Below, piece by piece: positions 11,494-63,729 of a DNA stretch of 64,000 bases. The stretch covers positions 6,668,477-6,732,476 of the forward strand of contig NC_092035.1 in the NCBI RefSeq assembly GCF_042242105.1, read 5' to 3'. The notes beneath the pieces are model-generated. The model was not told the origin of the DNA. It ran no database searches and worked only from the letters and a program-made list of their open reading frames with translations. The position numbers were made by a program, and so were the translations under genes. Position 1 is the stretch's first letter. Each line of letters opens with the position of its first letter. The DNA comes from Pempheris klunzingeri (taxonomy: Eukaryota > Chordata > Actinopteri > Acropomatiformes > Pempheridae).

Positions 11494-20957
<9,464 letters not shown>

Positions 20958-35600: not shown

Positions 35601-37761
35601 GCACGCTGCTGAATGCCATCCGTCTCTAGCTGCTCCTCCTTCAGGAAGTCCTCCAAGTCAGTCTGGGTTAACTTCTGACCATCACCCGAGTACTCCTGGA
35701 AAACCCTCAACACATCCTCCCGCTGGGTCAACATCTTGTAGAAGAGGACAAACTCATCATCCTCCAATGTACCCGACTGGGACTTATCAGCCATCTGATA
35801 GAGGAGAAAGGGAGCACGCTGTTACTCAACAGATAGATGCATCAAAACCCAAGAGGTCTCACAGCAGCCTCAGGCTGGGCACAGGAAAATGGCCGTGGAA
35901 ACCAAACACTCTAGGTTGAATGCTTAAATCACAAGAATGACCATCATTTCTCACTGTGAAGAGACGATGAGCGTGGTGCTCATTCATGTCCACATTCATC
36001 ATCTTCAGTAAATCTCGCACTTCCTTGAAGTTCATCCTGCCATCATTGTTCTTGTCTGCTTTCTTGAACCAGTCACCAATCCATCTGGGAACACCACTTA
36101 AGGAAAATATCTCATTCAGTAGTGGATGAAAGACTCGACTGAGTTTTGAAATTGACACTCATTGAGAACTGAGTTATAGTAAAGGACTGTATATTTACTC
36201 ATTTCTCAAACTGGCACATTTCAGAGAAAAACGATCAGCTTTGCTGCAAAGCTGCTGACACTCTAATAACCACTCTCATTGATGGCATCTTACTGAAAAC
36301 AGTGAGCCAAAGATACTGGTCAAGTTTCTCTCGCTCCCCCATGTTCTCCAGGTTCTCAATCAGCTTCCTCATGCCTCTGATCCAGGACTGTGCTTCCTCG
36401 GCTGACTCTGCCACCAGGTCCAGGTTGCCCCTGCGACCGCGGAAGACCAGTGTGAAGCATCGCTCAGCTGGGAATTCATCAGCGATGCTGAGCAGCACCT
36501 CAGACTGGTGGCCTTCTCGTATCGCCTCCACATCACTCACTGAAACTGGGCACAAAGACCAACACAGGATGAAAAACTGAGCAACATGCATCATATATTG
36601 CAAAAACCAACCAGTGATGATCAGTGATTAATCAAACAGCTAAAAGGACAAACGGTGAGCTGCTGTATAATCCCTGGGTGGTAACCATCATAAGATAAAC
36701 AACACATTTCAGTTACATCTTCTAAAGAGGGCCGTGATTATCAGCTTCTATGAAAAGAAAAATGGTCAGAATGCAAAAAATTCTGGTGAGAAACTTGTAA
36801 CATAAAGAAGATAACTGAATCTTTGCCCCCTCTGTTTTCTCTAGAGTAACTGATGATGCGGAAAACAGTTGTATGCTTCGTACCAGTTGAGTGACGTCAG
36901 TGAATATACTATGACAGGTATTACAGTTCTGTCAGTCATGTGCTCTTACAGGTAGAGTGGGTGTTCCCAGCCTTCTTGGACTTGTACCAGATGGTCATGC
37001 AATCGTCCTGAAGTTTGAAGTAGCGCTGTTTCTTCCAAGTACGGGACTTGATCTTCCTCATTATTGTCCCCACCAACATAGACTGGAGGTTGTCATCCCC
37101 CTGGATGCCTGAAAAGAGAAGTCTACAGGTTTTATTGACAAAATATACTCTGATTAGATCATACCTTTGCTCTTTGGTTTTAATTCTAATGAGAACATCC
37201 CATTTGTAATGTTTTACAAGTTAGGCTGCACATTGTCTGCCAATTAGAACATGACAAGTCATTATTAACAATGGAAAACTGGGTTTTTAATGTTGTCATG
37301 TTAAGGAAAAACCTAAATTTGAATTTCATGAAATGATAATATCACACTCTTGCAGCCCAAAACATCTATAATGAAATTTTAATGGAATGTGTGTAATATG
37401 AAAATAAGATGTCTTCTCTACTCTCGGGCTCTTAGATTAGTAAGATACTACAATTAGTAAAATTCAGTGATGCTGTGAATCATATTTTGCCTGGCTTTGT
37501 TGAAAATCCTCTGACACGAATGTGGAACATGTCTGTGTTTAGAGGAGGCCAACAGTGACGAGACTGCAACAAACAGGACGGAATCAGACAGACATCGCTC
37601 TGACACTAACACAGACAAACCAGGCAGCTATTGGAGCGAGTCAGTGGACTAGTGGAGATGTCATATGTGATGTCCTCTCTTCAGTATCTAGAGAAGTGAA
37701 CCATAATCCCACGTCAGGAGGCAAAACCAGACTTACGGAGGCCACTCCCTGTGGAAGCCAT
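23673..37761 (-). CDS. plcd4: Phospholipase C delta 4, complete, 15 coding exons
   Basis: Exons: 37737-37761, 36950-37108, 36317-36545, 35955-36084, 35563-35794, 35203-35404, 33596-33740, 32496-32648, 31350-31517, 26223-26379, 25900-26016, 24343-24521, 24112-24244, 23870-24019 and 23673-23764. They join in frame to 2271 nt (756 aa; human PLCD4 762). The enzyme splits PIP2 into IP3 and diacylglycerol under calcium control. Layout: PH about 10-130, EF hands from 139 (loops at D148-E159 and D184-E195), X about 290-425, acidic linker about 430-480, Y about 485-600, C2 to the end. Catalytic residues are intact: His306 (SSSHNTYL), Glu336 and Asp338 (VEVDCWDG), His351 (YHGHTF) and Glu385 (SIENHCS). 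MASTGSGL and the C-terminal [14 protein letters not shown] favour delta 4 over delta 1 or 3. Exon 1 has only 25 coding nt. Several donors are weak (GTGCAG after exon 13, GTGATT after exon 11). Which fish co-orthologue (a or b) is unclear. Confidence 0.95.
26410..26566 (-). mobile_element. SINE tail (family A) in plcd4 intron 9
   Basis: Minus-strand reading gives the body and tail of the family seen at 15419-15690 (TCCTCCAGCTTAGATTCCTCC, AAAGCGCTTTTGAGTAGTCG, GTGCTGTACAAATACAGAGCG). It is head-less and lies about 30 bp upstream of plcd4 exon 10, in sense with the gene. Confidence 0.8.
30537..30757. repeat. Composite CA minisatellite in plcd4 intron 9
   Basis: A block made of cagctgagacacacacacat plus acagcggagacac and a (CA)n tail repeats about three full times (from 30537, 30587 and 30641), followed by two shortened blocks. 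The block length varies with the CA tail. Long open frames here encode only C-V dipeptides and are artefacts. Confidence 0.9.
33062..33210 (-). mobile_element. LINE 3' tail in plcd4 intron 7
   Basis: The reverse complement reads ATTCTTGAATCCTTAATGTTGAA, then TCTCTCTCTTAATGAAAGAGTTTGGTCTAGACC, then GGCGCTCTATAAATAAAGATTAA. It matches the end of the element at 40283-40862 and continues beyond it to the true 3' terminus. Confidence 0.8.
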
Positions 37762-41185: not shown

Positions 41186-43661
41186 TCACTGTGGGGGGAG
41201 AGGGATGCCCCGGGGGTCGGTGACCTGACTCTCCTGCAAGTTCTTCACCAGCTGGGCCAGCCAGCGCTTGGTGGTGGTGTCATCCTTCAGGACCTGGGCG
41301 AAGGTGGTGTCTTTGAGCTGGTCGGGGAGGCACTGCCGCAGAGCTTCTCTGGCTCTGCACAACAGCAAACACACACGGCTCATATATGGACGCACTGCTG
41401 AACCAGACACCCCCCCCCCCACACACACACGTCGGCACCAACATGTTTTATGTGACCATCAGCAGGACCAGCAGGCCAGGATGAGCCAGCCTGTCCTCCC
41501 TGATCTCAGGGTGCTGTGGGCCCCACTGTACCTCAGTGAACATGACTCACTAAGAGCTGGATACTGGACTGATAGTACACACGAGATAGATGTTCCATAT
41601 CTATCAGGTGTCCTGTATGATCGTCTGTGTTAGACACATATCTGCAGCTCTCTTTTCTATATGTTCTCATTTTGTTGTCTGCTTATGTCCTGCTTTCTGT
41701 GTCTGTGGTCAATTCTCTTTAAAAAGAAAAACAGACCACATTGTAAATTGCCCCCCCCCACAAGAGGTGCAACAAAGCTAACAAGCAAGTGAGGGAGCTG
41801 CCAGTCAAGCAGAGTACCTGGAGTTGTCAGACAGGCGCAAGTAACAGCGCACCACATGCTTCAGGAGGCGGGCTGACGGCTCTTTGGACAGCTGGAGGAC
41901 CATTTTGCCCTGAGACAGAGGCAGAGACTGTAAAGCTGTTCAGAAATGTACATTACATTTAAATGATGACGAGCAACTCACAAGGATCATGGCAACGTGG
42001 GAGAAACGCTCATATGTCTGACAGATGTATGCCAGCCCCGTGTCATCCAGCAGAATCTTCTGCAGTATGAAGGTCGCAACCTAAAGTGTTGAAAGCTGGT
42101 CGTTACTGACTTGGCTTTTCATCACTTCATACAGTAATAACATGCGACAGGAAGAGGAACAGGCGGTATGCTGTGTGTGTGGATGTCACAGGGCCACCAG
42201 CCATCACTGTGTTGGTGAGATCAGTACCGTTTTAGAGAGCTCGCTGCCAGACTCCATGATGCGAAGGCACAGGGGAATGATCTCTGTGGTCAGAAGGAAG
42301 TTGATCACTTCCTGCTCATCTGTTTTCACCAAAGCACCTGGACATGGTCGACACAAGAGACTAAACTATTTCAAGCTACGAAAAGGACAGACCTATTGAA
42401 TTTCATTTCTACAAACTGAGGGAAGAATGGAATTCTGGAATAAACAGTGTTACCTATGACTCCTAAGCTGGTGAGGCGGAGGTACTCAAACGGCCGTGTT
42501 TTGCTCACTGTATGTAGGAACGGGTAGAGGAACAGTGGGATGTGTGCAGCCAGGAAGGCTGACCTGTGAATGACAAAAGTTATCAGGTCATATTTGTTTT
42601 AGGTGAGTGGCAGACTTCAGTGCTGCATACGTTTGGACCATTTTCAGGTTCTACCCTGAGACATGATCCTAAAGCCACACTGTCATATTTACCACGTACT
42701 GTAGTCTGTGCTGCACAGAAAGACGTGCAGTCCACTTACCTTGTCTCTGGATGGGAGGCCACACACTGGAGGAGTGCAAGGGCATTGCATACTCTGTTGG
42801 ACTGGTGAGCTGTCAGTGTGGGGGGGTTGATTGATGGGTAGATGTTGACAATTTCCTAGCAATGACATGGAGATGAAAACGCAGGTAAGTAAATTCTTGT
42901 GCTTCTTTTGTGACACCTGTGGAAAATGGCCTGATCTTACCTGCAGCAGGGCGGCTATGGTGCCACACGAGTGCCACAACATGGGAGCCAGGTCAGGCAC
43001 GGACTCCCTCTTCTTGCTGAGCTCCAGCAAGGCATTCTCCCTGGTCTCCGGACTGGACAGCTCATTGATCCACTGGTAGATCTTCTCTCTGTCAACCTGT
43101 GCCAGGGCTGTGGTTACAGCCTGAAAGCAATGTAGAAAAGGTAGCACCAGTGCAGCATGTTTGAAACCTGGCTCAGATCAGCTGGGGACAGCCATGGACA
43201 GCCATAGACAGCCTCAGACTGATGAGGTGGGGGGGGCAGTGCAAACCCAATGTGATGATTGTGGATGAATGACAGATGTAAAGCGTGTTAGATGCATGCC
43301 GGATTAACGAGCGGCCAGGAAGGCATTGCTGGTCATCTTAATTTGAACACCGTCAATGGAAACCAGTGAGGATGTGACACATTGACAGATTTACAAACTG
43401 CAATCTGACTACATTTTTCTGAGGCAGCTAACGTTATAGCCACATTTCAGGAAGTCACCTTAATATTACCACAGTATAGTTGGTGACTGCTAATTACCTC
43501 ATCTGTACACACCACGGTGATTTTATAGTGTAACGTCTCCTCAGCTTTGGAGCTAAAAGAGCATCTTAAGCTAGCATAGCCGGGCTAACCTGTGGACATG
43601 TAGGCTAGCTCCTGAAAGTTAGCTAAAGAGTCGGGCTACTTACTGCTCCTGTAGCCAGCAT
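41186..43661 (-). CDS. cnot9: CNOT9 (RQCD1/CAF40), CCR4-NOT complex subunit, complete, 8 exons
   Basis: Exons: 43644-43661, 42941-43120, 42740-42855, 42454-42563, 42228-42337, 41982-42080, 41818-41909 and 41186-41354. They join in frame to 894 nt (297 aa; human 299). Apart from the divergent N terminus (MLATGAVTTAL) the protein is almost identical to human: [37 protein letters not shown] and [18 protein letters not shown]9 is an armadillo-repeat scaffold of the cytoplasmic deadenylase complex. It binds CNOT1 and the tryptophan motifs of GW182-type partners and so links miRNA targets to mRNA decay. Differences from human are few (Phe to Cys in [11 protein letters not shown], Pro to Ser in SDNSRAREAL, Gly to Ser near the end). 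Its neighbour plcd4, same strand, matches the human 2q35 pair. ETS and YY1 sites mark the promoter. Confidence 0.97.
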
Positions 43662-44561: not shown

Positions 44562-47500
44562 TCAAAGTTCTGGAGGTGTGACATCTGGGGAATCCTTATG
44601 AGGCGCCCTTGGAGATGGAGAGAAATGGTAAAGATGTTACTGTTAAATTCATGTAATAATACATAATAATAATAATACGCTGACAGTACACTGGATACCA
44701 AGAAAATTCTAACTGCATTTATTAGTTTTATTTGTGCAAAATAGTCACACAGAATGATCAGTGAGAGATGCATATATAAAGAGATACATAAAAGATCACA
44801 TTAAAGGTGTACATGGTCAAATAAAATGGGATGAATAGACAGACGCTGCTTTAAAATGGATGTGTGTTTTAAATCAGTTCAACCAAAACAAAGGGGTGAT
44901 CATTTTTACAAGCGCTTTGTTTAACCTCAGTTTTAAAAACTGGGTAGCACAATTTACAGACACACAGCATAAAGAAACAGGTGACCAGCTGTCACTGGCC
45001 AGCTGTTTGGTTCTGGCCGCCATTGACTTCTTTGGAATTATATTCATGACCTATTTAAAATGACACAAGAGTACATATTTTCCACATCATGGATATATTT
45101 AGTTTTTCGGGACACCTGAGAATGTTTTACAGTCCAGTATTCTTCTGGGTTATTATTTCAGATGAAACTTCTACAGTACTGCACAGTATTAGTACAGTAT
45201 TAGCAGGGCAGCATGCTGGTGCAGTGTTTACCACTGGAGTCTCACAGCAAGAAGGTTCCAGGTTCAAAGTTGCCAGCAGCTAGTTTGCAGTTTGAACCTG
45301 GGGCTGTTCTGTGTGGAGTTTTCTTGTTCTTCTCCTGCTTACATGGGTGTTCTCCTCCCACAGTCATAGTTAATTGACTGTAAACTGCCTGTAGGCTGTG
45401 TGTGTGTCAGCCCCCTGCCCCACCTCTCACCCAAAGTCAGCTGGGATGGTATTAGCAGGTCTTTGCTACCCTCTTGTGGCTGCATGAGGAATGTCTTTCC
45501 TTCTGTGTGCAGTGTGGAAGCTGTGCATGTTTTGGTCATTCAGTAATGAGCATCTGAGTTCTGTTTAGTGTGCCACAAATAAAGGGTTACCTCTGTTCTC
45601 CTCACCCTGCGTCCTGGAGGACAGAGGCCACTGCTGCTGCACCTCTAGGCCACCAGCGGTCTGGAGGTCACTAGCTGTGGAACCAACATGTCCTGCACAC
45701 AGTTCAGAGTCACAGTTTCACACACGCAGGGATGAATTTCTCCAGCATTCCTTTGGTAGCTCAGTTTGTAATCATGTGTGAATATTCCTAGTATCATATG
45801 TGCTGAAAATGAATGCATAAGATGTGTAAGATGCATCATGACAGTTAAATAACTTTAGGGTACCAAGTATAGGACAGCAGCCAGGTCCAGTATCTTAAAG
45901 CCAGAGGATGAAATCGTTGTGATAACTCTTAGTTTGTAGATGAGACAGAACAGCCTCCACAGCTCCAGTGACACAGCACTGGGTCAGTCTGAGGTGAAGC
46001 CAGGCCCAGGCCACTATGACCAGGTTAGTCTGGAGGGACTCGTTTCCACGGTAACCTAGGTCTGACTTATCTGAGCTTCCTTTATCAACCAAAATGTATT
46101 AAAAACTAATCACGTTTGACTGAAATAAGCCTGGTTTAACTGCTAATGCTGCGTTCTGAAACACCCCTCTGACATCTAAAGATGAACAAAGGGCTCAGAA
46201 TGTCTGCTGCCAGTGTAACGTAGAATCTCCTGCTTCTGACATGTCACATCTGCTTTGATTGTTGGATGTATCAGGAGGAAAAGGAGTAACCTGAAGAAAG
46301 GGTTCTTGAGGTCCAGGATGTTTCCAGATTTGAAGCCGGATTGGTCGACTGTGGCTGTGATGTGGATGTCATAGCTCTGCCTAGAATGTCAAACAGGTAA
46401 ACAGAGTGAAAACAAGCTCCCATGGGGGGGCTTGAAAAGGCCTGATGGAAGCATAGGTGTACCTGTTGTTGGCGAGCAGCAGGACGGTCCCAGAGAGTGT
46501 TTGACCGGGCTTAGCGAAGAGCGGCGTCTGAAACAAACATCTGACCTGAGACCAGCGGGTCGGAGGCTCAGTGGGAGCTGTGGAGAGCCACACTGTTGAC
46601 CTGCAGAGACAGGTGGGGGTGTAGGTGGGTGGGTGGGTGGGGGGGGGGGTTACAGATACTACATTATTCTCACACTGATTCAATCTGTTGCTATGGAAAT
46701 GCCTCCTGTTATTTGACATAAATACGTCAAAGTGAAGCACCGTTTGAAAGTAGGTGCAAGTCAGAGGTGTGTATTTCTTACTGGGATCCCAAATAGGCCA
46801 CATCGAACCAGAAGGCCAGTCCATGGACCAGACCAGGCTGTAGCAGGGTGAAGACAAAGGGAATCTCCATTCTGGTGACACACACACACACACACACATA
46901 CAGTATTTTGACAGATGATTTTGATCTTGTATCCTACACACTATACACATCTTTACTGTTTATCATTTCATACATTCCTCTTCTCCGTGTCTGCTTTGCT
47001 GCTGCACTGAGGAACAATCTACCTAAATCCTTAAACCTGTTGTGTTAAAGCTGTTGTGACTCCACACTTTCAGATTCATCATTCTTGAGACGTATGAGCA
47101 TGTTAGAAATGGCCTATAGTAAACTACGCTAGTGCAGGACACTAAGTGTTGGTTCATGTATTTTCTCCAGCTTCCTCCCACAGTCCACAGACATGCACAT
47201 TAGCAGGTGACTCTAACCGGTGTGAGTGTGAGTGGTTGTCTGTGTCTGTGTGTCGGCCCTGTGGTTGGCTGGTGACCAGTCCAGGGTGTACCCCGCCCCG
47301 CCCAAAGTCAGCTGGGATTGGCTAGATTGGATGGACATCCAAACAATGCTGATTGGATGAGCATCTGTGCTTCATTAAATATGCCTCACTTTTACCTCAT
47401 ATCTGCTCACAGCTACATTACGGTGTTGTAAACCACTTATCAAATGGTCAGACTACGTATAAATGCTGATGATGAATGTAACCTGCGTAAATCTTCTTCT

Positions 47501-50500
47501 TTTAGCTCCCTGAAGTTGATGCAGTGTTTCACAGACCTGGCCATCAGGATCTGTACATCAAAGGTGTCCTGGAAAAAACATGAAATCCAAATCTGTTGAT
47601 AACAACACATTTCCTAGAGAACTGATGCTGCAATAGATGGAGCAGATAAAGCTAACAGCCATGTATGTTGGAGAATAGCAGGACACTATATACTATACTG
47701 TCTAACTAACATTACAGGCTGCTGTTCTACCCTGGGTAATGCCTGTCAGGCAGCAGTGTTCTATGGCTGCTGACCACTTGTATTCATCTTTCTGGAATCA
47801 GCAGAAACATTCAGAAACTTGGAGTTCTCCACTAGTAAATCAGATTCTGTGCTGTGTAACATGCATCGGTCATAGCATACTGATCTGTTGTCAGTAGGGG
47901 TGTAACGGTACACGTGTGGGTCTTTTGGTTCTGAACAAATGCAGCATTGTTTTAACCACTAAAAGTGAAGCTTTTGGTCTGTGGAACTTCATTTAGAACT
48001 CTGAGTTTCCCTCCAAGCAAAATATAACTGTGGCAAAGGGCCAAATGTTGTTCGTTCAGCCACATGTGGTGGAGTAATGTCAGACCTGTTGGTGCTAATG
48101 TAACAGAGCCCAGCCTCCTACTTATGGTGAAGGCAGATAAACCAGGGCATGAAGGTCCCCCTGTAAAGTGTCCTGTTTGGTAAAGTCTGTTTTCTCAATT
48201 CACTTCAGACAACAGACACTGACAGCTGTTTGGATGAAGGCTCTCTGGCAGTATTGTTCAGCTGCAATCAGGAATACTGCTGCTTCCAACCTGCTCACTC
48301 ATTTCACACAGCATCGTCTGAATGTGAACGTCACTGATGTCCCGCTCTGCTACAGCGTGGACATGAAGAGACAAAGCGCCTCGGTGCTACTGGGACTGAT
48401 CGGTCCTGATGCGAGGCTCCATTCACTTTCATTTGATTTACTTGTGAGTAAATGCTACTTTAGCATTAGCAGGTTGCATCTAGTTGCAGCTGTACTGACA
48501 GCAGTAGTTTGTTCAGTAAAGCACTGTGACTTGTGTGTACCGTTACGCCCTCACACACAGTGACCGGGCTCCAGCTCCACGTACCACTATAGGCTGCCTG
48601 AAGAACTCGTCCACTGCAGCAGTGTGAAGAGCACTCAGGTTAACTCCGTAGAAGTTTCTCTGCTGCCTGAGGAGAGAAAAGTGACGGGTGAACACTGAAG
48701 TCATTTACAGTGTGCTGCTTCACACATTTGATAGTTCATGAGTTCAGTGTGCAGAGAGTCCACACACAGTCTTTTCTTACTGTTTGTACTTTACTCTTGT
48801 TGTGCTCTTTGTGGACTCTCTTGCACGCAGGTTGGATTTATTTGTGGGGGAAGCACCAAGTTACTTTGTGCTCCGTTCAATCATATTTGGCACAATTGTG
48901 ACGAGCCCGTCTGTAGGAATGAAGTTAATTAAGTCTTTCCTACAGTGTCACTGCTCGGAAACGGCTTCAGCTTACAATAACCCTACATTCCTCAAGGCTG
49001 ACGGAGCCTGACCTCCACATAGTGGTGGAGCAGTGAGGGGCACAGACCATGGCAGCACACACACATGCTGGTACGCTTGCATGCACAGACAAACTGCACA
49101 ACAGAGGTTGTATTGTTTGCATGAATTTCCAGAAATAAATGTACATAGCTTGGTTGTATTCACTGGATCTACACAAATGAACAAATTAGGAAACGATTCC
49201 TAACCTTAGCTTATGCATGACTCATTTTGTTCGTCTATGTCATTGATTGTCCTTGTTCATGTTCACTGTCTCACTATAGCCACTTTGCCTTTGATGGAGT
49301 TGCTGAGCCATGATTTCTCATGGTTACCTTCTTAACTTTCTTTTATTAAACAGAATCAAAGAAGATTGTGATCTGTCCTGTCTGCCATCTTTGACCAACA
49401 ACCATCATACAATTCTGAGAAAACACTGAATTTCCTGAATTTACTTTTAGTATAAAATATCAGCTTCAACCTAAATGTATCAGCCTACAAAAGATCATAT
49501 CAGTCAAGCCTTGGTTGGTGTGTGTGAGTCAGGACTGGACTGAACCGGAGCGTTTTACACCTCACAGGAAACATGGCTGACTGAGGTGAAGCACTGGGAA
49601 CACGTGTGTGTCTGTGTGAGAGTGGAATGAAAGGGAGGCAGTGTGTTTGTGTCCTCATGCATGGATTTATGTCTATGTATGCTGGTGTGTGTGTGTGTGT
49701 GTGTGTGTGTGAGAGACCAGAAACTAGCTCGTGCGTAGTGTTCGAAGTAGAGCTGTTCGTCACTGAAGGGAGCCAGATGAATATCACCACAGGAGGGAAA
49801 CATCAGTCCTGGAGAGGAAGAGGATGATGAAGAGACTTTAGAAAGGCTGAATAAGACAGACAGCTCTATGAACATGGAGAAAGGTAAGTCGTATGTCAAA
49901 ACTAACATGGCCCACATCTAAACGAGCTCATCCTACGTCACAAAACTAACATGACACTGAACCCCAAATTGCACCTGAGGCTGTGCTCTGCAGTGTGAGT
50001 GTGTCAGTTAGATCTCTCCTGTATGAATAGGTGAATGTGGCTGTAGTGTTAAAGTGCTTTGAGTGGTAAAAAGACTAAAAGGGCGCTATACAAGAACAAT
50101 CCATTTACCATTTAATAATGGCAATAAACAATGTGTTCAAGTCTAAACAAATTAGGGCCCCACTGATTTATCGGTCGGCCGATTTGATCATTGTCATGTT
50201 GCCTGATATGCGCCAATACAAAAACTTACAGTACAGAAAAAGGTGGTTGGGGGATTTACAAATGGTGAAATCATACAGTTTGTCCAGCAGAGTGCACTCT
50301 GACTCCACCACTGTCTGCAGCACAGCTGATCAGACATCAGTCCATTTCTTCATGGTTGCTAACTCGTTTGTAAAATGTATTGCTGAAATGTTAATAAATG
50401 ATGACCAGAGCCAGAGCTAATGCTTGCGCTGCTTGTGCTAACTGGAGCTGGTGTGTGTGCTAACTTGCTTCATAGACAGGGAGGTGAATATTCTAAACTT

Positions 50501-53500
50501 GTGCGACATGCATCCTTTGCATCGCCCGTTGCCATTTGGCGTCATCTCACATTTATTTGCATCTTTGCATTGACTTCGTATGTAATTTGCTTTGAGATTG
50601 GTGGAAACCATTCACCGTTCATACATTACGTCCTCAAGATTAGGAACTAATGTAAGACTCAACCAAAGGCCCTTATTACAGTCAAATGGACATGGACGGA
50701 CATACAGGGATGCTGTCTGCTTTATCATGTTGATGTTTCAGCCGCCAAGAAAGAACATAAACACCAGAACAACATTAACCTATAAAATCTATTTCAGATA
50801 AGATTTTGGATAAATAAGTATCCATTATCACTTAATTGTCACATGAAACTGAAAATAAAAAATAATGATCAGTTCTATGTATTAAATTTTCACTGATACT
50901 CTCATACTATTGATTTTTTTATTGCATTATTAAAAAAATAAATCAACAGGTTCAGAGGTTTTGTCCTCCTCTGATTCCCTGATGTTTCTCTGTTCCTACC
51001 ATTGGGTTTGAGCCATTTTCTAGCATGCAAGAAGCTCTCCATGAGTCGGTCATTGAGCAGCATGTACCCCATGGGCTCAGACACAATGACATCCACCATG
51101 TCCGGACAGTGGACCTCCTCCACCTCCCCCTCGAGGACCCTGATCCGCTCAGAGAGACTGTTACTCTGGACCAGGATCTGCACAGAAGACACAAAACATG
51201 AGCTACATTAGATAACACATCTACAGTACTCAGCAACTACTGGAGAAAGACATTATTTTGGAAGACAGACAACGTTTCAGGTTTCCAGCTTCGGTGAATG
51301 CATTTTAAATCCCAGCACTTAAATCCAGATTGATTCATTTCTTTTAAAGCCTGAGCTGTCGTTGCTGTGGCTCAGTGGTAGACTAGGCTGTCCCTCAATC
51401 AGAAGGTCGGGGGTTTGATCCCCAGCTCCTATCGGTCAACATGTCGAAGTGTCCTTGGACAAGACACAATTGTCAGGTAGATGCTCTTTGTGATGTCTGT
51501 GTGTTTCAGGGACAGCCACAGTATGTTTGAGTTGAGATGCTCCTTTAGGAGGATGCACCTCTTCTGCTGTTTGAGGAAGGAGCCACTGGTTCACAGTCTC
51601 CCAGATAATGTAGCAGTTCTATAGGTTTATACTGTGGCAGTATGGCAGACGGCTACAATAGTACAATACAGAACAGAAATCTTGGCTTGGTGATTGGGTG
51701 TTTTTCTTTCATTGGTAGTCATAGATACATTCTGCACCAAAGTTGTCCACAAGCTTTTAGCTTTGACTTTAAAGAACCAGATATTTTGTAATGCAGTTAT
51801 TAAGCTTTGGTCCTACAGATTTAACTGGGAGAATTCCATGTCTTCTCAAGCTGTAGAAGTGCTCCAACTGTGAGTCCCATATCTATATGTCTTTTGGAGA
51901 AATGATGTTAGAGGGTCAGTATCCCCAAAGTATCTGAAAAAACATATTTCCTCATTTGTCCAGGTTAGGAGATATCTGTCTCTTTGGTTTCTGCCTCCAC
52001 TCTGATACACTGGAGGTGAATGAATAGAATTGGTGGTGCTCACAGCACTAAGAAATTCCATTCAACCTTAAATGTCTTTCCAGAAACAATGTTGTGGTTG
52101 CTCCCGATAATCCACAGGGCGCACTGCCCACAGTTCTTCCTCAGGAAGAATTTCCCATAGAAAATGGGCGGCATGTTCTGTGGATTACCATGAATAACGG
52201 GGACACTGGTTTTGGAAAAAGGCTAGATCAGGTAACTCTGACACCATGTTAATATTCAATACTTAATAAAGGGCAGGGATCAGGCTGTGTGCAGCAGCAT
52301 CTCTCTGCCTGCTGAACTGGGCCAGATGTTGCTGCAACCCATTAACTCCCCAGAATGCCACGCTCTGCAAGTGATGTATGTACTCTATGTGTGTGTGTGT
52401 GTGCTATCTGGTGCGTTGCTGCGGTTTCTCTTTAGGCTCTGTCAAGGCCAACACACACATAATGTTACTGTCCAACCTCTGCATCTGAGCTCACAGTCAG
52501 CAGATTCAAATCTTGTAGGTTAGTTACAGAGACTGAAACAATGCTTTCATTTCTGCTGACAGCATTAACACCATCTTAAAGCTGATAACACTATGACAAA
52601 GACTGGGATGGAGGCTTCAAATCTGCTGACCTCAGTATACTTGGCCATGGGGCCAGACTCAACAGCGTATACCCTGGAGGCTCCTGCCTGGACTGCAAAG
52701 AAAGAGAGAAGCCCAGAACCACAGCACACATCCAGAACCACCTACACAGACAGAAGAGAAAAGGAAACAGGACCAGAAGCTTTTTAGATTCACATTTACA
52801 TTGCACTCCTGGACTGTATTCTAATGTCTACAATCCCAAAAGGCTCACAGTTGAGTTTTTTAAGAGTACAGGTGACAATCATACAGGAAACTTGATGTCA
52901 GAGAGGTAGGATGACATGCAACAAAGGGTCCCTGGTGGGGACATTGCTGTTACACGGCATGAACTGTAGCCCACTAGTCTATGTTGTTTTTCCTTTATTT
53001 CACATATCCACCTGCTAGTTGCATGGCATGTGATGGCTCCTTGGACTATTTATCTCAGTGAGCCCCATACATTTACTTCTAGGCAATGTCCATATGATGA
53101 CAGCCTTAAAGGATAGGTTCAAAGTTATAGCTCAAATCTTATTTTTGTAGTTGTGGCCATCACGTCTGTCAGTTATGATGAGAGTGTAGTAACTGGAGTA
53201 ATAAAGTACCATGGCAGCATTGTTACAGGTGAGGAAACACAAGCATCATCCAACAAGACAGGTTTCCACTGTTAGTGTACACCTCTGTTATTAAGGATGA
53301 GCATAAAGTGTGTTCAGTGGATGAAGTTTGTATCCCTAATGAAGAATCATTTATAATATAAAAAGGTGAATGAGCTTGTGGACAAGAGCTGTCACCTTGT
53401 CCCTGAAGTCAGTCTCATTGAGTAAAATGGCTCTCTGGTAGGTGGCGATCCTCAGGTGGTCCTGAAGCAGGCTCTGCTGCTGGGAGATACAGCTGTGGAA

Positions 53501-54714
53501 CTGCACACACAACAAGGAAGCATTTGGACTTTATCTATTTATCTCTAACAGCTGCAGAGTCAGGGCTGTCGAGTGTCTTACCTGGTAGCCCTGTACTGGG
53601 GCAGGTCCAGTCCTGTTTTCAGCCATGGTGGGATGTCTCCCGCTAGATGTTTGGCCTCTCTCTGCATCCTTGTTTCCTTTGCTAGTCTCCTCATCACCCC
53701 TTCGCTTCAATAATTGCTGGAAGACGGTCATATCTGGAGACCACAGAGTTGATGTTTGAACTCCTGACACACTAACCAAACCCTGGATGGTAGGCAGTGT
53801 GAGCTGGAGCATATCCAATACAAACCAGCAGGAGTTTGGAAATGCAGGAGAAGACTGAGCGTGCTGGCGCTGACCAAGAAGGACTGACCTCCGACCTGGC
53901 AGCAGTCCATCTCCTTGGAAACAGTTAACTGGAAGACTGATACTCTGTTGGCTGAAACATATTGGTTTAAACCAATGCGGACACAGCACAGGAAGCCAAC
54001 ACATGAAGAAGGCAGAGAAGAAGAAGACTGCTAACAAGCATGAATGTGAACAATGCAAGTTTGAAATTATTCAGATCATCTGCAACAAATGTTTTTATGG
54101 AGAAGATTGATTTGGTGAGACGCTGCAGCAGGGACTGATTGGCTCCATCAGAAAACTTGAGTGGACTATTTACATTTTACTTCAGACATGTAAGCTGCTG
54201 CGTTTTGCAGATACAGATTTCACTTATTGTCACTTGCTGCCCTCCAATCCTCTTTTGTCTTGACACTCCAAAAACTCTCTTATACTTCATTTCAGTCTGT
54301 CTCCAATACAAATGAGATGAATCGACTAACATTTGTCTTTGAACTGTCGTGTTAGAAACAGGTTGAAATAACTTTACTGCTCTGTCAGATATATTTTACC
54401 TTATTGTAAAAGAAAACGTCACAACTGAAAAATGAATGAATACTAAGATAGAGATGTATGATCACATCATAAAATAGGTCACGGTGTAATGGGCTGATTA
54501 ACCCGGCAGTGTTAGAGTTAAAATGAGCTCCATCTTGACCAGTTAACATTAATAATAATCCAATAGTTTGATATTCAGTACTAGTAGTAAGACTGTGAGA
54601 GGAGCCACTCTGCATAATCAATATGTTGTTGGTGATACTATTGTTAATGCTGTTTTAATACTTTTATTAGTCTAATTTGATAATAACATTCTATTTTGAA
54701 TGCAGACGTTGTAG

Positions 54715-54749
<35 letters not shown>

Positions 54750-55494
54750 CACCATCCTGCACAGTGAGCTGCTGAGTCTCCAGTCCTGTGCTGAGGAGCA
54801 GAGTGAGCTCCTGCTCTGCTCTCTGTCTGCACACACTGACCTGCTGCTGGCTGCTCACCTCCTCCTGGACCTTCACCTTCTTCCCAACACACACATGCAC
54901 GCACACGCACACACGCACACTAGAGGTTCAGATCAAACCAAAACCACCGCATCTAATATGATTTCATTGGCATAGCTATTCCTAACATGACCCTCATGGG
55001 CGATCAAAATGATTTGGATAAATCATGAATGATCTGTGGTCCATCCAGCATCTAGCGGATATGATAGTAGATAGAAAGTAGAGCACGTTGGTCTTTATCC
55101 ATGTTCACAGCAGTTTTCTCAACAGTTACAGAGCAGACATCAGAATGTTACACACTACAAAACTTTCTACCTGGGACATGCACTTGGCTCACAGGTGATT
55201 AAAGTGTAAAAAGATTCACAGCACAGGTTTGAATCTGGAACTAAAGCAGAACAGATTCGTTTCGAGAGTCGAGCTGGGTTAGTTCAAGCACAAACACTAA
55301 ACCAGGTTTCTTTAGTTGAAACACATCTTTTAAAGTCAAAACCCAGAACCCAAAGTTGAGAAAAGTGTGCACCCTGCAGCCGCCACTGTTACCTCATCAT
55401 GTGTCTCCATGTGCTCCTCCTCCACCCTCACCTCCTCCTGCAGAGTGAAGACCCTGACAGAGAAAGCCAATGACTCCTCACTCCTCTCCTCCAT
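44562..55494 (-). CDS. carm1l: CARM1-like (PRMT4-type) protein, probable pseudo-methyltransferase, 13 exons
   Basis: Exons: 55393-55494, 54753-54879, 53582-53733, 53396-53500, 52631-52741, 51000-51177, 49718-49808, 48585-48666, 47483-47568, 46782-46871, 46463-46600, 46291-46380 and 44562-44607. They join in frame to 1398 nt (465 aa; human CARM1 608). A divergent N-terminal PH-like region (1-127) precedes the PRMT core (about 125-450): [53 protein letters not shown] and [13 protein letters not shown]1 transfers methyl groups from SAM to arginines of histone H3 and coactivators. Here motif I reads LDVCCGSG (Cys168 for Gly), the double-E loop [12 protein letters not shown] (Asp242 for Glu), the THW loop TRW (Arg390 for His), and the YFxFY helix G-Y-Q-F-H. 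Glu190 and Glu233 remain. The C-terminal activation domain is missing. Least certain are exon 2 (AAG acceptor, flanked by CA tracts) and exon 13 (supported by phase and AATAAA only). Confidence 0.9.
45205..45465 (+). mobile_element. SINE (family B) downstream in carm1l intron 12
   Basis: The head is GCAGCATGCTGGTGCAGTGTTTACCAC, the B-box-like word GGTTCAAAG, and the body GTGTGGAGTTTTCTTG, ending in CACCCAAAGTCAGCTGGGATGG. It is the most complete copy of this family here and lies antisense to carm1l. Confidence 0.75.
46611..46650 (+). repeat. G-rich tract next to the carm1l exon 11 acceptor
   Basis: The plus strand carries at least four runs of three or more G (gggtgggtgggtgg and a long poly-G). 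On the minus strand it is the C-rich pyrimidine tract immediately before the acceptor of exon 11. It fits a G-quadruplex pattern on the template strand. Confidence 0.7.
47165..47335 (+). mobile_element. SINE 3' part (family B)
   Basis: CTTCCTCCCACAGTCCACAGACATGCAC, GTGAGTGTGAGTGGTTGTC, GACCAGTCCAGGGTGTACCC and CCCAAAGTCAGCTGGGATTGGCT form the standard 3' half of this family. It lies in a carm1l intron, antisense. Confidence 0.8.
50030..50115 (+). mobile_element. SINE tail, diverged family A type
   Basis: GTTAAAGTGCTTTGAGTGG, GACTAAAAGGGCGCTATACAAG and CCATTTACCATTT follow the order of the family A tail but differ in detail. It is probably a related subfamily, in a carm1l intron. Confidence 0.65.
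51365..51475 (+). mobile_element. SINE head (family A) with tRNA-like promoter
   Basis: GTGGCTCAGTGGTAGACTAGG is an A-box region, GGTTTGATCCCC a B box, and the body word CAACATGTCGAAGTGTCCTTGG follows. Only the 5' part is present. It resembles a tRNA but lacks a matching acceptor stem. It lies in carm1l intron 5, antisense. Confidence 0.8.
52885..52990 (-). mobile_element. SINE 3' part (family C)
   Basis: Minus-strand reading gives CTTTGTTGCATGTCATCCTACCTCTC preceded by GGGACCCTTTG, the usual downstream part of the family whose head is seen at 60033-60178. It lies in carm1l intron 4. Confidence 0.55.
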
Positions 55495-57156
55495 TCTTCA
55501 GTGTGAAAGGAAGCTGCTCGTTGAGAAGAAAGAGAAGGAGAGAGCAGGGGGGAGGAGGTGGAGAAAAAGGGGAGGAGAGATGGAGCAAAGATTATAGGGG
55601 AAACAAGGGCGAAAAGTAGGGAAAAGAGGAAATGGAGAAATCTGCAGCATATTTGTGATAAAGTGTCATTTTTATTTCAACTTACTGAAACTATGCTATG
55701 GACACTTTTACGTCTACATTCTTCTTTCATCTGTTTTCAAGTGATGTATCCAATACATGTATGGTCTGAAAGACCAGTAGTGGTCTGTAGGGGTTGGGTT
55801 GGGTGGGAATACTGGCAATGCACAGCTTAACAAATGCATTCAGCCTGATCACTTATTCTAAATGACAAGTAAAAATAGTGTAATGTCCCTTTAATGCAAT
55901 GCTAACACAGAAAACCCCAATGGGCCAGCAGTCTTAGTGAAACTGATGATGGGAATGTCATTAGTTCTTATGATGGCGCTAACAAAACAGTCAGAATGTC
56001 ACCAGTCATTAGGATACATCCTCTGGGCACCATGCATGGCTGTACAACTTTTCATGGCAGTCCACCAAAGAGTTGTGGAGATATTTCAGTCTGGACCAAA
56101 GTGGTCGAGTGATAGACTGATGACAGACGATGTCGTCCTGAGGGTGGGACCAGGGGAGAGGTCTGTGACTCATCAACGCCTTAAGGAATCATCTTTGAGA
56201 CGTTAATATCACATCAGATGGTAGTTGTCCTGCTCTTGATCTGAAATAAAGTCATTAGTGCCGGGTGTGCAGCACAGGCCCACAACAGTGCCTTTTAAAA
56301 ACAGATTTTCCACCACAGTCACCACACCAGTGTGGAAAATCAGTTTTTGAAGATCACTGAGGCTGATGCGGTGGAATCAGCGAACACAGCATTATGGCAG
56401 CGAACCATTGCCTCCATGTGCCATGTGTGATGTTACTGTTGGCTGCAGCCTGAAGCAGTGACTTCACACTACAGGATCGTAGTGATCTTCAGCGCTGTGA
56501 TCATATAATGCACACATCGTCCCAACCATTCCTCATTTACACTCATGGTGAGGGTCAGTCCATTTCAAATAGCAGCACTCCCTCTGCTGGATGTATAGCG
56601 TCACTGCAAGAACACAGATGGAACATCAGCCACCTCATTTTACCATTAAATGCCACCATGTCACTGTCCCATATTCTTTTATATTGAAAGTATCAATAAA
56701 GACCTTGTATCTCCCCCACAGGGAGGTCCTGCCATCAGACCCTACTGTCAAACTGACAGGCCCTAGTAAGTCCGACTACATTATGGCATTTCATTGCAGG
56801 TTCCCAACAAAGATAGCGTTTGTGCTGTTTATACAAAGGGATTAGTTTAAATCCACATGTGCTCACTGGAGGTTTTACCTGCCGCTATAGACAAGAAGGT
56901 GACGAGTGACATGGATCCTAGACATGGATGTCTAGAATATTTACATTAGTGCTAGTTCACATGTTCTCAGTCTTAGGAAAAGTACAGTGGCATTCCAATC
57001 AAAACGTAAGCAGGCAACTGAGAAGTATGAGCCTACGTGACAACATGACAGACTTACTTATCTGTCTGCACCTGCATTCCTGTCCAGCAACTTTCTCTGG
57101 TCTGAAGTGTTTCTCTCCACAGGATGTGACATGAAGAAACAAACCCAAACTCAAGC
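55495..57156. other. carm1l upstream region, no gene recognised
   Basis: No exon is supported. The 200 bp upstream of carm1l contain purine-rich GGAGAGA-type sequence. Any untranslated first exon of carm1l would lie here or further right and cannot be placed. Confidence 0.4.
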
Positions 57157-59060: not shown

Positions 59061-62000
59061 TCAAATTTTCCGTAGAGCTCCCAGAATGCACAAGACCACC
59101 ACTGTGACCAGCAGGACTCCAGCGATCAGTCCAATCCGAATCCATGGGAGAGACTCAGATGATGTCTCTGGGGTGTCTTGACAAAGGGATGGGGGAGGGA
59201 GTGTAGATGGGTGGAGAGCACACATCAAAGCACAGTATAATCTTTGCCAATGAAAATGACAATACAGATAGGTTACTAATTTTCAATCTTCAATATCAAT
59301 CTGGTCGAAACCAGAACTATAGAGTTGAGTGAGGAGGACCCAGGCCTGAAATGTTGACATTTTTTCTCAAAGTTGTCCTGCTGTAAACTCTACAGCTGCT
59401 CACCTTGATCTGGGAATGATGATACCGTCTCCACGAAGGTTTCCATTGGCTGTGACTCTGTGATTACTATAAAAACATCATTCAATGAGCACAAAATGTT
59501 GTGTGAAGTTGCAGGTATGGTGGCCCTGAAAGCTCAAAGCACCACAACATGAGACACACATACAGACAGAACAAAAGCAAATGAAGAAAACAAAACATGA
59601 CACAACGCAGAAAAAACAAGGCTCACCTTGTATTGGCTGCGTGGAATCTTCCAGGAGAACAGGAATACGATCGTATGGGAATTCAGTGGATCCGTCCGCC
59701 TCTTCTGTCCAAACTCTTGGGACCCAGTACGCTGTTGCTGTGGTTGTCTCATCAGACTGAAGAGCTACATGAAAAATGCCCCAAACACAACAAGTATTAA
59801 CACCAACTAATGAGGTCATGAGTCCACTGACATGATGCATTCACTGTGGTATAAGAACAGCCGTGTGTTATGGATTTGGAACTGTCAGGTCAAGCTGTTG
59901 TCTGTGAAACTTCAGCTCAAAAAGATTTCCCACTGAAGGGTCGGCCATGCTACAATATTCCGCCATCATCAGTCTACTGATAAAAACATACTGTGCTGCT
60001 GCAATTAGAAGAGTGAGACTGAAGATTACAAAGTGCCTTGGTAGCCGAGAGGTTACAGCACACGCCGCATAACCGTAACCATCGCCGGTTCCATTCCAGC
60101 TGGGGGTGCACGCCATACCTCCACTCCTGTTTCCACTCTGCATCTTCACTGTAACTGTCAAATAAAGGCAAAACTAATCTGTAAAGGAGAATAAAATAAA
60201 GATTACCAATAAGTGTAGGGCTTGTGTTAAGCACAGTCAGTGTGATGCTCTCTGGTATTCCAGGCCTGGGATCGTCAGAATCCCTGAAAACAGAATTAAT
60301 AATGGTTAGAATTTTCAATGATTGTCTTTGTGCACTGACATAATGAAAAAAATGTGTCTATGATTGATTATAACACCCAGCTGAGCTCATAACGCAGCAG
60401 GACAGGTGTAAAAAGACACAAGTGTTTGCCCTGTTTGGATTAGCTTGATATCTTTTTATTGTCAAGTATTAGAGACAGAGGTTTTGTACAAAACAATATT
60501 GTTTTAGAACTTCACATAATAAAAAAAGCTGTGGGAGGAGTGCAGGACGGGGGCTGAACTGGCACTAGGGATCGGGTGCAACAGTTGGAATCCTTTCTAA
60601 TTCCTTGTTGAATCTTTTTGAGTAGTACAAGTTATAAATATGTACTGTTTTTATTTCACTCCGTATAGCTGAACCACATCTTGTCACTGTAATGTGGCAC
60701 TCATTAACCCTGTCCTGACACATTCCTCCCTGTTGCGGTGCTTTGTGACCATAACCATATTTGTCAATGTATTTAAAGTGCCAGAGATAACTGCTCGTTA
60801 CTTATGCAAAGTATATTGAAACCATAAAGTCTATTAAGATCCTGACAGCTGCTTGATCTATGAAGTATTATAGTAAAGGGCTCATTAATTTCGGAGATAA
60901 AGCAGTCCACAGACCTCACCTAGTTTTATACAAACAACGGTACTGTCCATTGTCACTCATCGTTGTTGGACTTATAAAAAGATGAAATTCTTCTTTAGTG
61001 TCAGCTAATACATGAACCCGAGACATATCCTCAGAATCAGATCCAGTATGGGAGAGAGTCTGTGAAAAGCACAAAGAGATGACCAGATGTTGATGGGAGA
61101 CACTTTGATGACAGAAAACAAACCAACAGTATCCAAGTATGTGATGTACAATGACCCCAGCGCCTACAGACAGCTGCTTCTGTTATACAGTCCGTTTTGG
61201 GCTATTTAGAGTTTTCTTATTGTTCTGATTACATAGAGTCTCAGAGTTTTGATATAATGCCTAAATGAATGTAAAATATCAAGTATATAACTAGAATAAA
61301 CCAAATGAAACACTGTCAGCTGTCAGAACACCAGCGAGTGTGTTTTCTTGTGTTACACATCACCAAATCTTCTGAGGGATGAAAATAGACAGAGACAGGC
61401 GGATTAGTACAGCAGCTCGGACAAAATGGATTCTCAGGCAACAAGTGGACTGAGCTCATTTCAGATTATTTCACTGCCCCAGCAGCTGATGACAGAGAGG
61501 AGAGCCACTTCTGATTCGGACTGTCTGGTCTGCTCTGATGGCGAAGCTTGTAAATGGGACATTTAATTACATAAATGAGGACGATGTTAAGGAGATCGAA
61601 ACAGCCCAAGAGTGCAAGTGTTACTGCAAACTCCACAGCAGCAGCCTGTGCTACCAGCTCTGTACGCCGGAGGAGACGGTGCGACCAAATCACAAAGATG
61701 AATAATGTTAAGTGATTAACTTAAGATGGGCCACATGATCCTTGTTTTTTCTGTTTATGAAGGTGTGACATGTTTTTCTGATAATAACAGGACAAGAAAA
61801 TCCCTAGTTATGGATGGCTGAAGGACAGTCCTTATCCTCATATGACTGCCTCTACATTATGCACGACCGGCCATCAGCAGTTACAGTACCTCGCTTTGTG
61901 TTGACACTATAGTGCTGCCATTCCTGGTCCACCAGGCTTGCAGCTCGCTGGGGGACTGACCTCTGGAGATCTGAAGGTAGCAGGCCATTTTCACCTTGTC

Positions 62001-63729
62001 ACCAGCAGGCACCACAAGGGAGCTCTCAATGTGAGGCACTGGGGGGAGAAAACAGGAAAGTGGCAACAGAAGAGCAGATGTGAGGTGGAAACCGAGATCA
62101 ATTAGAATGTAATAAATGAATAAAAAGAGGATGAACCTGAACAGCCCTATCAACCAAAATAAAGCATAATTATACTGACTAATGATTCTATGATGTTTTC
62201 TATTCTGAAATACATTTTATATTGATCAATCAATCAATAAACTGAAATACAGTGTAGCTGGAGAGCGATCTTGTCCCTGGACAAATGTATTTTTAATGTG
62301 GCTTATTTCCTTATAGTCAACATCATTGTTAAGGCAACATTACCTGCTGGAGGGAGTGTCGTGTGCTGTTGCTGCTAAAGTTCACACATTAACACTGCAC
62401 CAGAGAACTTGTTATCATCTCCTAAATCACAGATAAAGAACGTGCCTTATTTTCTCTAGTAGTCATAAGAATATGTCAGAGATAGATATGGACTATCTGA
62501 GCCATGTCTGTCTCGGTTTGGAGAGTTGTGACCTATATTGCATTAATTGAGTAGCCGGCCGGAGGACAGAGGTGGGTCTTTGGGGAACATTGCCAATGAG
62601 CTTCTGCCCACTCCACGGCTACACTAGTCGGTAATCTGTGTTCTGCACAATGACTGTGGTGAAAAGCTCATAGTATAGCAGCTTAGCCAATGAGCATTTG
62701 GATCAGTGTCTTCGTCTGGCAAGCACATCTTCTGTGCCTAGCTTCAGGCAACTGATTGCAAGCAAGCAATGCCATTCCTCCCACTAGACTCAATAGACTG
62801 TCTTTAACTTCCATGTATGTTCCTTGAACGTTATAAGTTAGTTGATTGAATGTTATATTGTTATTGCCAATCAATTCAGATCTCTGACCTTTTCTAAACA
62901 TTTTCTATAGCTTGTTGAAAAGGGAGCCGACAGGAAGGTATAAGGGAGGACAATCCATCCAACAACACCCACAAACCGGGTGCGTACCACACAGAATCAG
63001 AGCACACATGAAGCTGTTACATGGACTTAGTCTTACACAGCCATGGCAGTAACTCCACCTCTTTCTTTCTCCAACTCACCCTTGACTGTGAGCCACACTG
63101 TTGATATGGTTTTTCTTCCTCGCCAAATGCACTCGTACATGTCAGAGTCGCTGAGGATCGTGTTCAGAAGGACCACAGACCAGTCTCCTTCTCTGAGCTT
63201 CTCTTCTGAGGGCAACTGGACTCGGCTCTGGAAGCAATTATGGGACTATTAGTCACAAGCCTCAATGTTTCCTTCTCAGAATGTTAATCTTGACAGTGTA
63301 GGCACGGAGGAATCAGCAGGCTTCTCTGTGGCAGCGTGGCTGAGAGCTCCCACACCACATCATTCATACAGGTGAACATGGATGTGCCCAGACAGACTAA
63401 ATCCACAGACTTTGGATTTAAAAAGTGAGGGTGCAGGTCATATCCTCGTCATGTGTATGTTATACTGTACAGAACCTGCACTGGGACTGAACCAAAGCAA
63501 ACTTGATTAAAGTACTGCCGATTCCACGCTGTAAATTATAGAAAGACAGCACTAACCTTAAATTTGTCTCCCTCTCTTAGGTCCTCTCCCTGCAGAATTG
63601 CAACATCCACCCCCATGGCCTCCCACTGAACACTCCCTTCGTCCCCCAGGTAGGCTGAGCCGTTGCAAGGCAAGATGACGGACTCTCCAAACTCCACCTG
63701 AAGGTTCACTGTCTGCGCTCTATGAATGG
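59061..63729 (-). CDS. Two-Ig-domain type I membrane protein, 5' end missing
   Basis: Visible exons: 63557-63729, 63080-63227, 61890-62038, 60920-61059, 60207-60283, 59627-59764, 59404-59466 and 59061-59176. They join in frame to 1004 nt (about 334 residues after the missing signal-peptide exon, which is probably right of the window). Ig1 has VILPCNGS, VQWEA and the hallmark DSDMYECIW; Ig2 has VKMACYL, LQAWWTRNG and SDNGQYRCLY. A Thr/Ser-rich stalk of about 65 residues follows, then one membrane helix (IGLIAGVLLVTVVVLC) and a tail ending LRKI. Sequons NGS and NTS are present. Each Ig domain is split over two exons by a phase-0 intron. The protein is probably a cell-surface recognition or adhesion receptor. 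The tail is too short to signal by itself. I cannot name an orthologue; B7-, nectin- and CD4-like families are possible. Confidence 0.85.
60033..60178 (+). mobile_element. tRNA-derived SINE (family C) in an intron of the Ig gene
   Basis: GGTAGCCGAGAGGTTACAGC serves as A box region, GCCGCATAACC and GGTTCCATTCC as B box, and the end TGTCAAATAAAGGCAAAAC is the classic tail of a fish SINE. It is antisense to the Ig gene. The open frame on the minus strand through it is not a gene. Confidence 0.85.

Follow-up and report, generated by a model that had tools for sequence, protein, structure and literature searches.

Among protein arginine methyltransferases (PRMTs), the pseudo-enzymes that we met in the literature are a prozyme of trypanosomes and, in PRMT7 and PRMT9, a second domain that is inactive. 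TbPRMT3 carries a Glu to Asp change in the double-E loop and misses residues of the THW loop, and no activity was seen (PMC4234254). PRMT1-PRO was reported to be needed by its active partner PRMT1-ENZ (PMC10908127), and we read the two names as denoting one and the same protein. Here we describe carm1l, a CARM1-like gene of the fish Pempheris klunzingeri, located on the minus strand of a stretch of 64,000 nucleotides (nt) of contig C24 (positions 6668477-6732476; hereafter the window), in a genome of 646 Mb and 439 contigs. The gene (window 55494-44562) consists of 14 exons that join to 507 codons plus a stop codon, with no internal stop. The best reading of carm1l is that of a pseudo-methyltransferase. 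In the open literature searched, as judged by titles and the first part of abstracts, we found no study of carm1l or CARM1 as a pseudo-methyltransferase, and two papers that matched the name carm1l concerned a gene list of spotted gar and a Carm1-loxP allele.

Catalytic positions and protection of the active site

Alignment of the joined protein to human CARM1 placed Gly167, His171, Cys210, Asp284 and Arg432 of carm1l at the positions of Tyr150, Tyr154, Gly193, Glu267 and His415 of CARM1, respectively. These are the five replacements that a preliminary description of the locus had listed, and all of them were borne out. The residue numbers given there were 42 too low since exon 3 had been left out, and the constant offset of 25 behind human CARM1 turned out to be an artefact (the true offset is +17). 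The carm1 gene of the same genome (C17) retains all five residues. The comparison was extended to seven other type I-like loci of this genome, being carm1, prmt6 (C21) and loci on C22, C5, C17 (at 6.0 Mb), C10 and C1. The loci were the best-scored search candidates only, and a further locus may exist; some of the matches were to short exons that had weak E-values of their own (for the Tyr exons on C5, C1 and C22 between 0.5 and 2) and were placed by gene order. The first Gly of the GxGxG motif I, which is Cys in carm1l (DVCCGSG), is Gly in 7 out of 7 other loci. In the double-E loop, where carm1l keeps E275 and has Asp284 as the second residue, Glu is found in all six recovered others, and the loop that reads TRW in carm1l reads THW in the same number (the relevant exons of C1 were not recovered in either case). 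Finally, the YFxxY helix, GYQFH in carm1l, has both Tyr residues in 5/5 recovered others (C10 and C17 at 6.0 Mb not recovered). Among the loci seen, only carm1l departs from the consensus, and it does so at all five positions. Considering that the outgroup PRMTs keep the five residues, the changes are derived in carm1l. Further changes, not listed before, are F151Y, M163L, A216S, S217G, K242E, M269L and Y417S, all at residues of CARM1 that presumably make contacts. An assembly error as the source of the replacements was rejected, as 107 of the 326 core positions differ from human CARM1 with no gap or stop. Based on the residues that are lost, carm1l is predicted to transfer methyl groups to arginine little or not at all.

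To relate these changes to general divergence, 32 positions of CARM1 taken to contact S-adenosylmethionine (SAM) or substrate were compared with the rest over 327 positions (the 326 of the ungapped core plus Tyr150), gaps being counted as changes. At the 32 positions the human residue is kept 32 times in the fish's own carm1, 22 times in PRMT6 and 18 times in carm1l, the overall identity being 109 (33%) for PRMT6 and 219 (67%) for carm1l. PRMT6 thus keeps its active site much better than the remainder (22/32 versus 87/295, P = 2e-5), and the site-versus-rest odds ratios of carm1l and PRMT6 differ (z = 3.95). Human CARM1, the fish's own CARM1 and PRMT6 have 104 positions in common, 22 of which are changed in carm1l; a change is found at 9 of the 22 active-site positions among them, against 13 of the remaining 82 (P = 0.018). 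When the core was divided into 15 segments, the first helix stretch (150-171) was the most changed (13/22 versus 76/281, P = 0.003, uncorrected for the 15 segments). The fact that PRMT6 protects its active site and carm1l does not, supports the view that the usual protection has been lost in carm1l.

Descent from CARM1 and selection on the reading frame

One other CARM1 gene was found in the genome, which is the carm1 gene on C17 (near 7.53 Mb). Its exons 3-13 measure 126, 107, 105, 111, 178, 91, 82, 86, 90, 138 and 90 nt, and carm1l has the same length in 10 of these 11 exons and the same phase in all 11. A retrocopy was rejected as the origin of carm1l, given the presence of introns at the carm1 positions. 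Over the 326-residue core, the fish's carm1 is identical to human CARM1 (PDB sequence) at 302 positions and carm1l at 219. Of the 302 positions common to human and own carm1, 88 are changed in carm1l, which makes carm1l the fast copy. The best matches of carm1l were CARM1 chains (512-516 bits), compared to at most 165.5 bits for PRMT6. The CARM1 N-terminal domain (PF11531) was recognized on residues 51-130 with 55.5 bits (cut-off 22; exon 3 alone 35.1), versus 117.9 bits for exons 3-4 of own carm1, and the PRMT oligomerisation subdomain (PF22528) with 71.1 bits (cut-off 27). By descent, the N-terminal domain, the core and the exon structure place carm1l within CARM1/PRMT4, whereas the C-terminal transactivation domain is not found. 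As judged from these comparisons, carm1l is an old paralog of CARM1 (PRMT4), the age of the duplication following from the saturation of the silent sites. Within the core, carm1l agrees with own carm1 and not with human at 7 positions, agrees with human and not with own carm1 at 5, and at 12 positions all three differ; counts of 7 and 5 do not clearly favour either branching order.

CARM1 and SMARCA4 are linked in human; in the fish genome the QLQ domain was matched on C17, at a distance of 2.3 Mb from carm1, and on C3 and C7, with no match on C24, which yielded no placement for carm1l. A gene of the same name, also a CARM1-like gene of a ray-finned fish, was placed in spotted gar between pum3 and fybb, followed by rictorb (PMC8042750). 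Here, in contrast, the pum3-type CPL domain is found on C19 and rictor on C7, and carm1l lies on C24 beside cnot9, so that synteny with the gar gene does not confirm orthology. Scans of prokaryote contigs (without relatives) and viral contigs (one 37-residue match, 41% identical) did not recover carm1l.

The differences between carm1l and carm1 are distributed over the three codon positions as 83/50/172, in 325 codons. The ratio of nonsynonymous to synonymous divergence (dN/dS), a check that the preliminary description had proposed and that was run against own carm1, amounts to 0.23/2.08 (NG86) or 0.225/1.50 (LWL85), i.e. about 0.11-0.15, where dS is close to saturation (of 100 four-fold sites in common, 57 differ). 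In a neutral simulation at the divergence between carm1 and carm1l, not one of 2000 runs left the frame free of stops, the mean number being 12.4; when the divergence was set to 20%, the mean was 5.8 stops, and 0.15% of the runs had none. Judging from these patterns, selection has acted on the carm1l protein through most of its past, where the estimate is a pairwise average from one genome and as such compatible with a recent release of constraint.

Gene model and neighbouring features

The coordinates of the revised gene model are given in Table 1. The preliminary description counted 13 exons where there are 14, and its numbers fit the omission of exon 3 (126 nt, or 42 amino acids). We consider this exon to be real because the PF11531 match on the joined protein extends over residues 51-130 and because a whole-genome profile search with PF11531 has a match right there (C24:6722297-6722431, window 53821-53955). 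The single open frame that had been described over the exons was recovered, with 507 codons free of stops. The splice sites had been called normal, which holds in so far as all 13 introns are of the GT..AG type; weak donors are present at exons 3 (gtttgt), 8 (gtctct), 10 (gttaca) and 13 (gttact). The mean donor score over exons 3-13, calculated with a donor frequency matrix, was 1.5 bits for carm1l versus 3.9 bits for own carm1 (paired P = 0.064), and own carm1 likewise has a few weak donors. The least certain part of the model is exon 1, a putative coding exon proposed from its frame and splice signals only. The CpG observed/expected ratio is 0.21-0.38 over window 54001-57000, i.e. there is no CpG-rich stretch at the start of carm1l. 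The extra 45 nt of exon 4, an exon that ends at the lost Tyr150, lengthen the linker ahead of the catalytic core.

At the 3' end, exon 14 was chosen over a read-through of exon 13 because an AATAAA follows its stop codon. Exon 13 stays open beyond its weak donor (window 46179-46290, minus strand) and reads RYTGS there, as in the carm1 exon after FFR; this tail could be a relic, or carm1l could end there instead. The activation domain is missing from both candidate ends. A search of the window with the C-terminal exons of own carm1 gave nothing above chance (best E 1.2, outside carm1l), and the domain is therefore absent from carm1l. The last intron contains a dispersed repeat (window ~45199-45366), of which at least 39 further copies occur in the genome at 74-84% identity.

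Table 1. Exons of carm1l and codons of the five replaced catalytic residues (window coordinates).
Feature	Position	Strand	Remarks
Exon 1	55393..55494	-	start codon; open over 34 amino acids; donor gtaaca; phase compatible with exon 2
Exon 2	54753..54879	-	3' part within the PF11531 match; alternative acceptors possible
Exon 3	53826..53951	-	CARM1 N-terminal domain; frame-neutral; exon 3 of own carm1 has same length and phase
Exon 4	53582..53733	-	152 nt, 45 nt longer than the 107 nt of carm1; ends GYQ
Gly167 codon	53588..53590	-	CARM1 Tyr150
Exon 5	53396..53500	-	His171
His171 codon	53495..53497	-	CARM1 Tyr154
Exon 6	52631..52741	-	motif I
Cys210 codon	52724..52726	-	CARM1 Gly193
Exon 7	51000..51177	-	double-E loop
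Asp284 codon	51049..51051	-	CARM1 Glu267
Exon 8	49718..49808	-	very weak donor
Exon 9	48585..48666	-	presumed dimerisation-arm segment; PF22528 match spans residues 309-470
Exon 10	47483..47568	-	
Exon 11	46782..46871	-	
Exon 12	46463..46600	-	TRW loop
Arg432 codon	46555..46557	-	CARM1 His415
Exon 13	46291..46380	-	ends FFR; weak donor
Exon 14	44562..44607	-	short tail and stop; AATAAA about 30 nt downstream (44530); without activation domain

Directly downstream of carm1l lie exons of cnot9 (Rcd1-like, PF04078; window 41189-43177, minus strand). A phospholipase C gene, presumably of the delta type, is located at 31284-37220 on the same strand; it shows the X domain (PF00388), a PH-like exon below cut-off and, by eye, an EF-hand-like part. 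The open segments at 59481-62216 (minus strand) resemble, by eye, exons of a membrane protein with immunoglobulin domains, with one V-set/I-set match below cut-off. The window further contains a minisatellite (19760-20112) with a unit of 20 base pairs, 17.6 copies and a higher-order period of 60 base pairs (96% matches), which is open in all three minus-strand frames, and on the plus strand (1800-2084) a retroelement fragment that by eye is reverse-transcriptase-like.

Possible role of carm1l and comparison with known systems

As in a prozyme, catalytic residues are lost in carm1l while the frame and the fold signature are kept. We give a probability of about one half to the reading that carm1l is an old, still-constrained CARM1 paralog that is no longer selected for arginine methylation and acts without catalysis, most likely in a PRMT dimer. 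The loss of catalytic residues in an intact frame, as claimed in the preliminary description, is upheld by the in-genome controls; that the gene is conserved across species, and that it dimerises or competes with CARM1, as also put forward there, are suggestions. The protein would fold like a PRMT, bind SAM poorly or not at all, and not methylate at CARM1-like rates. The most likely way for it to act would be to fill the second place in a dimer with CARM1 or another type I PRMT and thereby raise or lower the activity. The genome contains a carm1 gene whose motifs are intact, and by analogy with the trypanosome prozyme, which has the same two kinds of loss, a dimer with CARM1 is the arrangement that we favour. 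The E267Q mutant of CARM1 was described as enzymatically dead (PMC11035800) and as methyltransferase-deficient (PMC11466993). According to the latter paper, a review, the hydroxyl group of Ser217 forms a bond with the carbonyl of a Tyr, numbered Y153 there and read by us as Tyr154, and phosphorylation of Ser217 ended SAM binding and left dimerisation and coactivator function unaffected (PMC11466993). In carm1l, position 217 is Gly and position 154 is His. The wider proposal, in which carm1l is a stand-alone vertebrate pseudo-PRMT, an ancient CARM1 paralog that ray-finned fish retained to tune CARM1 by dimerising with it without catalysis, and is convergent with the trypanosome prozyme (double-E Glu to Asp, THW His), is put forward tentatively and at clearly longer odds.

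Several observations weigh against a non-catalytic dimer partner. First of all, carm1l keeps Glu215, Glu258, Asp166, Arg169 and Trp416 of CARM1 (Glu232, Glu275, Asp183, Arg186 and Trp433, respectively), the retention of the two Glu having been described before, as well as most of motif I, and the change of Glu267 to Asp is conservative, unlike that in E267Q. Taken alone, the active site of carm1l does not differ significantly from the rest (18/32 versus 201/295 kept, P = 0.23), and the difference between carm1l and PRMT6 in the number kept among the 32 positions is not significant either (P = 0.44). Of the two segments that we take to form part of the dimerisation arm, 304-325 is the second most changed of the 15 (11/22) and the next one (326-347) has 5 changes in 21. 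Furthermore, Tyr150 of CARM1 (called Y149), for which the Phe mutant weakens dimerisation (PMC11035800), is Gly in carm1l, and the second JAK2 site (called Y334 in the same paper and read here as Tyr335) is Phe.

Part of this evidence would also fit an enzyme that still methylates but with an altered rate, product (e.g. mono- or changed dimethylation) or substrate, considering that E232 and R186 on the side of motif I, E275 as the first Glu of the double-E loop and W433 of the THW loop are retained. We assume that E181 of TbPRMT7 corresponds to Glu267 of CARM1 and that Q329 of TbPRMT7 represents a natural departure from the THW His. In TbPRMT7 the E181D mutation led to a gain of dimethylation, and the product specificity was altered without killing the enzyme (PMC12153873), a point that belongs with those weighing against a dead partner. 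Nevertheless, Gly193 was replaced by Cys in a motif of which the three Gly were called strictly conserved (PMC12153873), and both Tyr of YFxxY were lost together with Y417S, S217G and M163L. A working enzyme should moreover keep its active-site positions better than carm1l does (9/22 changed versus 13/82), which makes an altered enzyme unlikely, though the least so of the alternatives. Less probable still is that carm1l is in early decay, having been constrained for long and released recently, with no stop acquired yet. The donors that are weaker than in carm1 (very poor in exon 8), the many active-site changes, the missing C-terminal domain and, as weak evidence, the lack of a CpG-rich start are in line with decay; it is at odds with 507 codons without a stop, an ungapped core of 326 residues, 10 of 11 exon lengths as in carm1 and a dN/dS well under 1. 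A scaffold that neither catalyses nor binds CARM1, e.g. one that reads transcription factors or substrates of CARM1 via the N-terminal domain, is the most doubtful, for although PF11531 is still recognized and the dimer arm has changed much in its segment 304-325 while several beta-barrel blocks are well kept, the N-terminal domain itself has diverged (55.5 versus 117.9 bits for exons 3-4 of own carm1) and the activation domain is lost.

If the losses hold in other fish, the pseudo-methyltransferase reading would imply a pseudo-arginine-methyltransferase encoded by a separate gene in vertebrates. If that reading is true, a knock-out of carm1l with carm1 kept would offer a genetic handle on the regulation of CARM1 dimers by a dead partner. 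Caution is also due when carm1l is annotated by name as an active histone methyltransferase.

Compared to known systems, carm1l resembles CARM1/PRMT4 itself in the lengths (except for exon 4) and phases of exons 3-13, in 219 of 326 core residues and in the presence of PF11531 and PF22528, and it differs in the replacement of Gly, Glu, His and two Tyr, in the longer linker ahead of the core and in the lack of the activation domain. From the C-terminal pseudo-domain of PRMT7, which is fused within one chain, it differs in being a separate gene. Although carm1l is of unrelated origin and is known here from sequence alone, it has in common with PRMT1-PRO of Trypanosoma brucei that it is a stand-alone PRMT paralog with a Glu to Asp change in the double-E loop and an altered THW loop.

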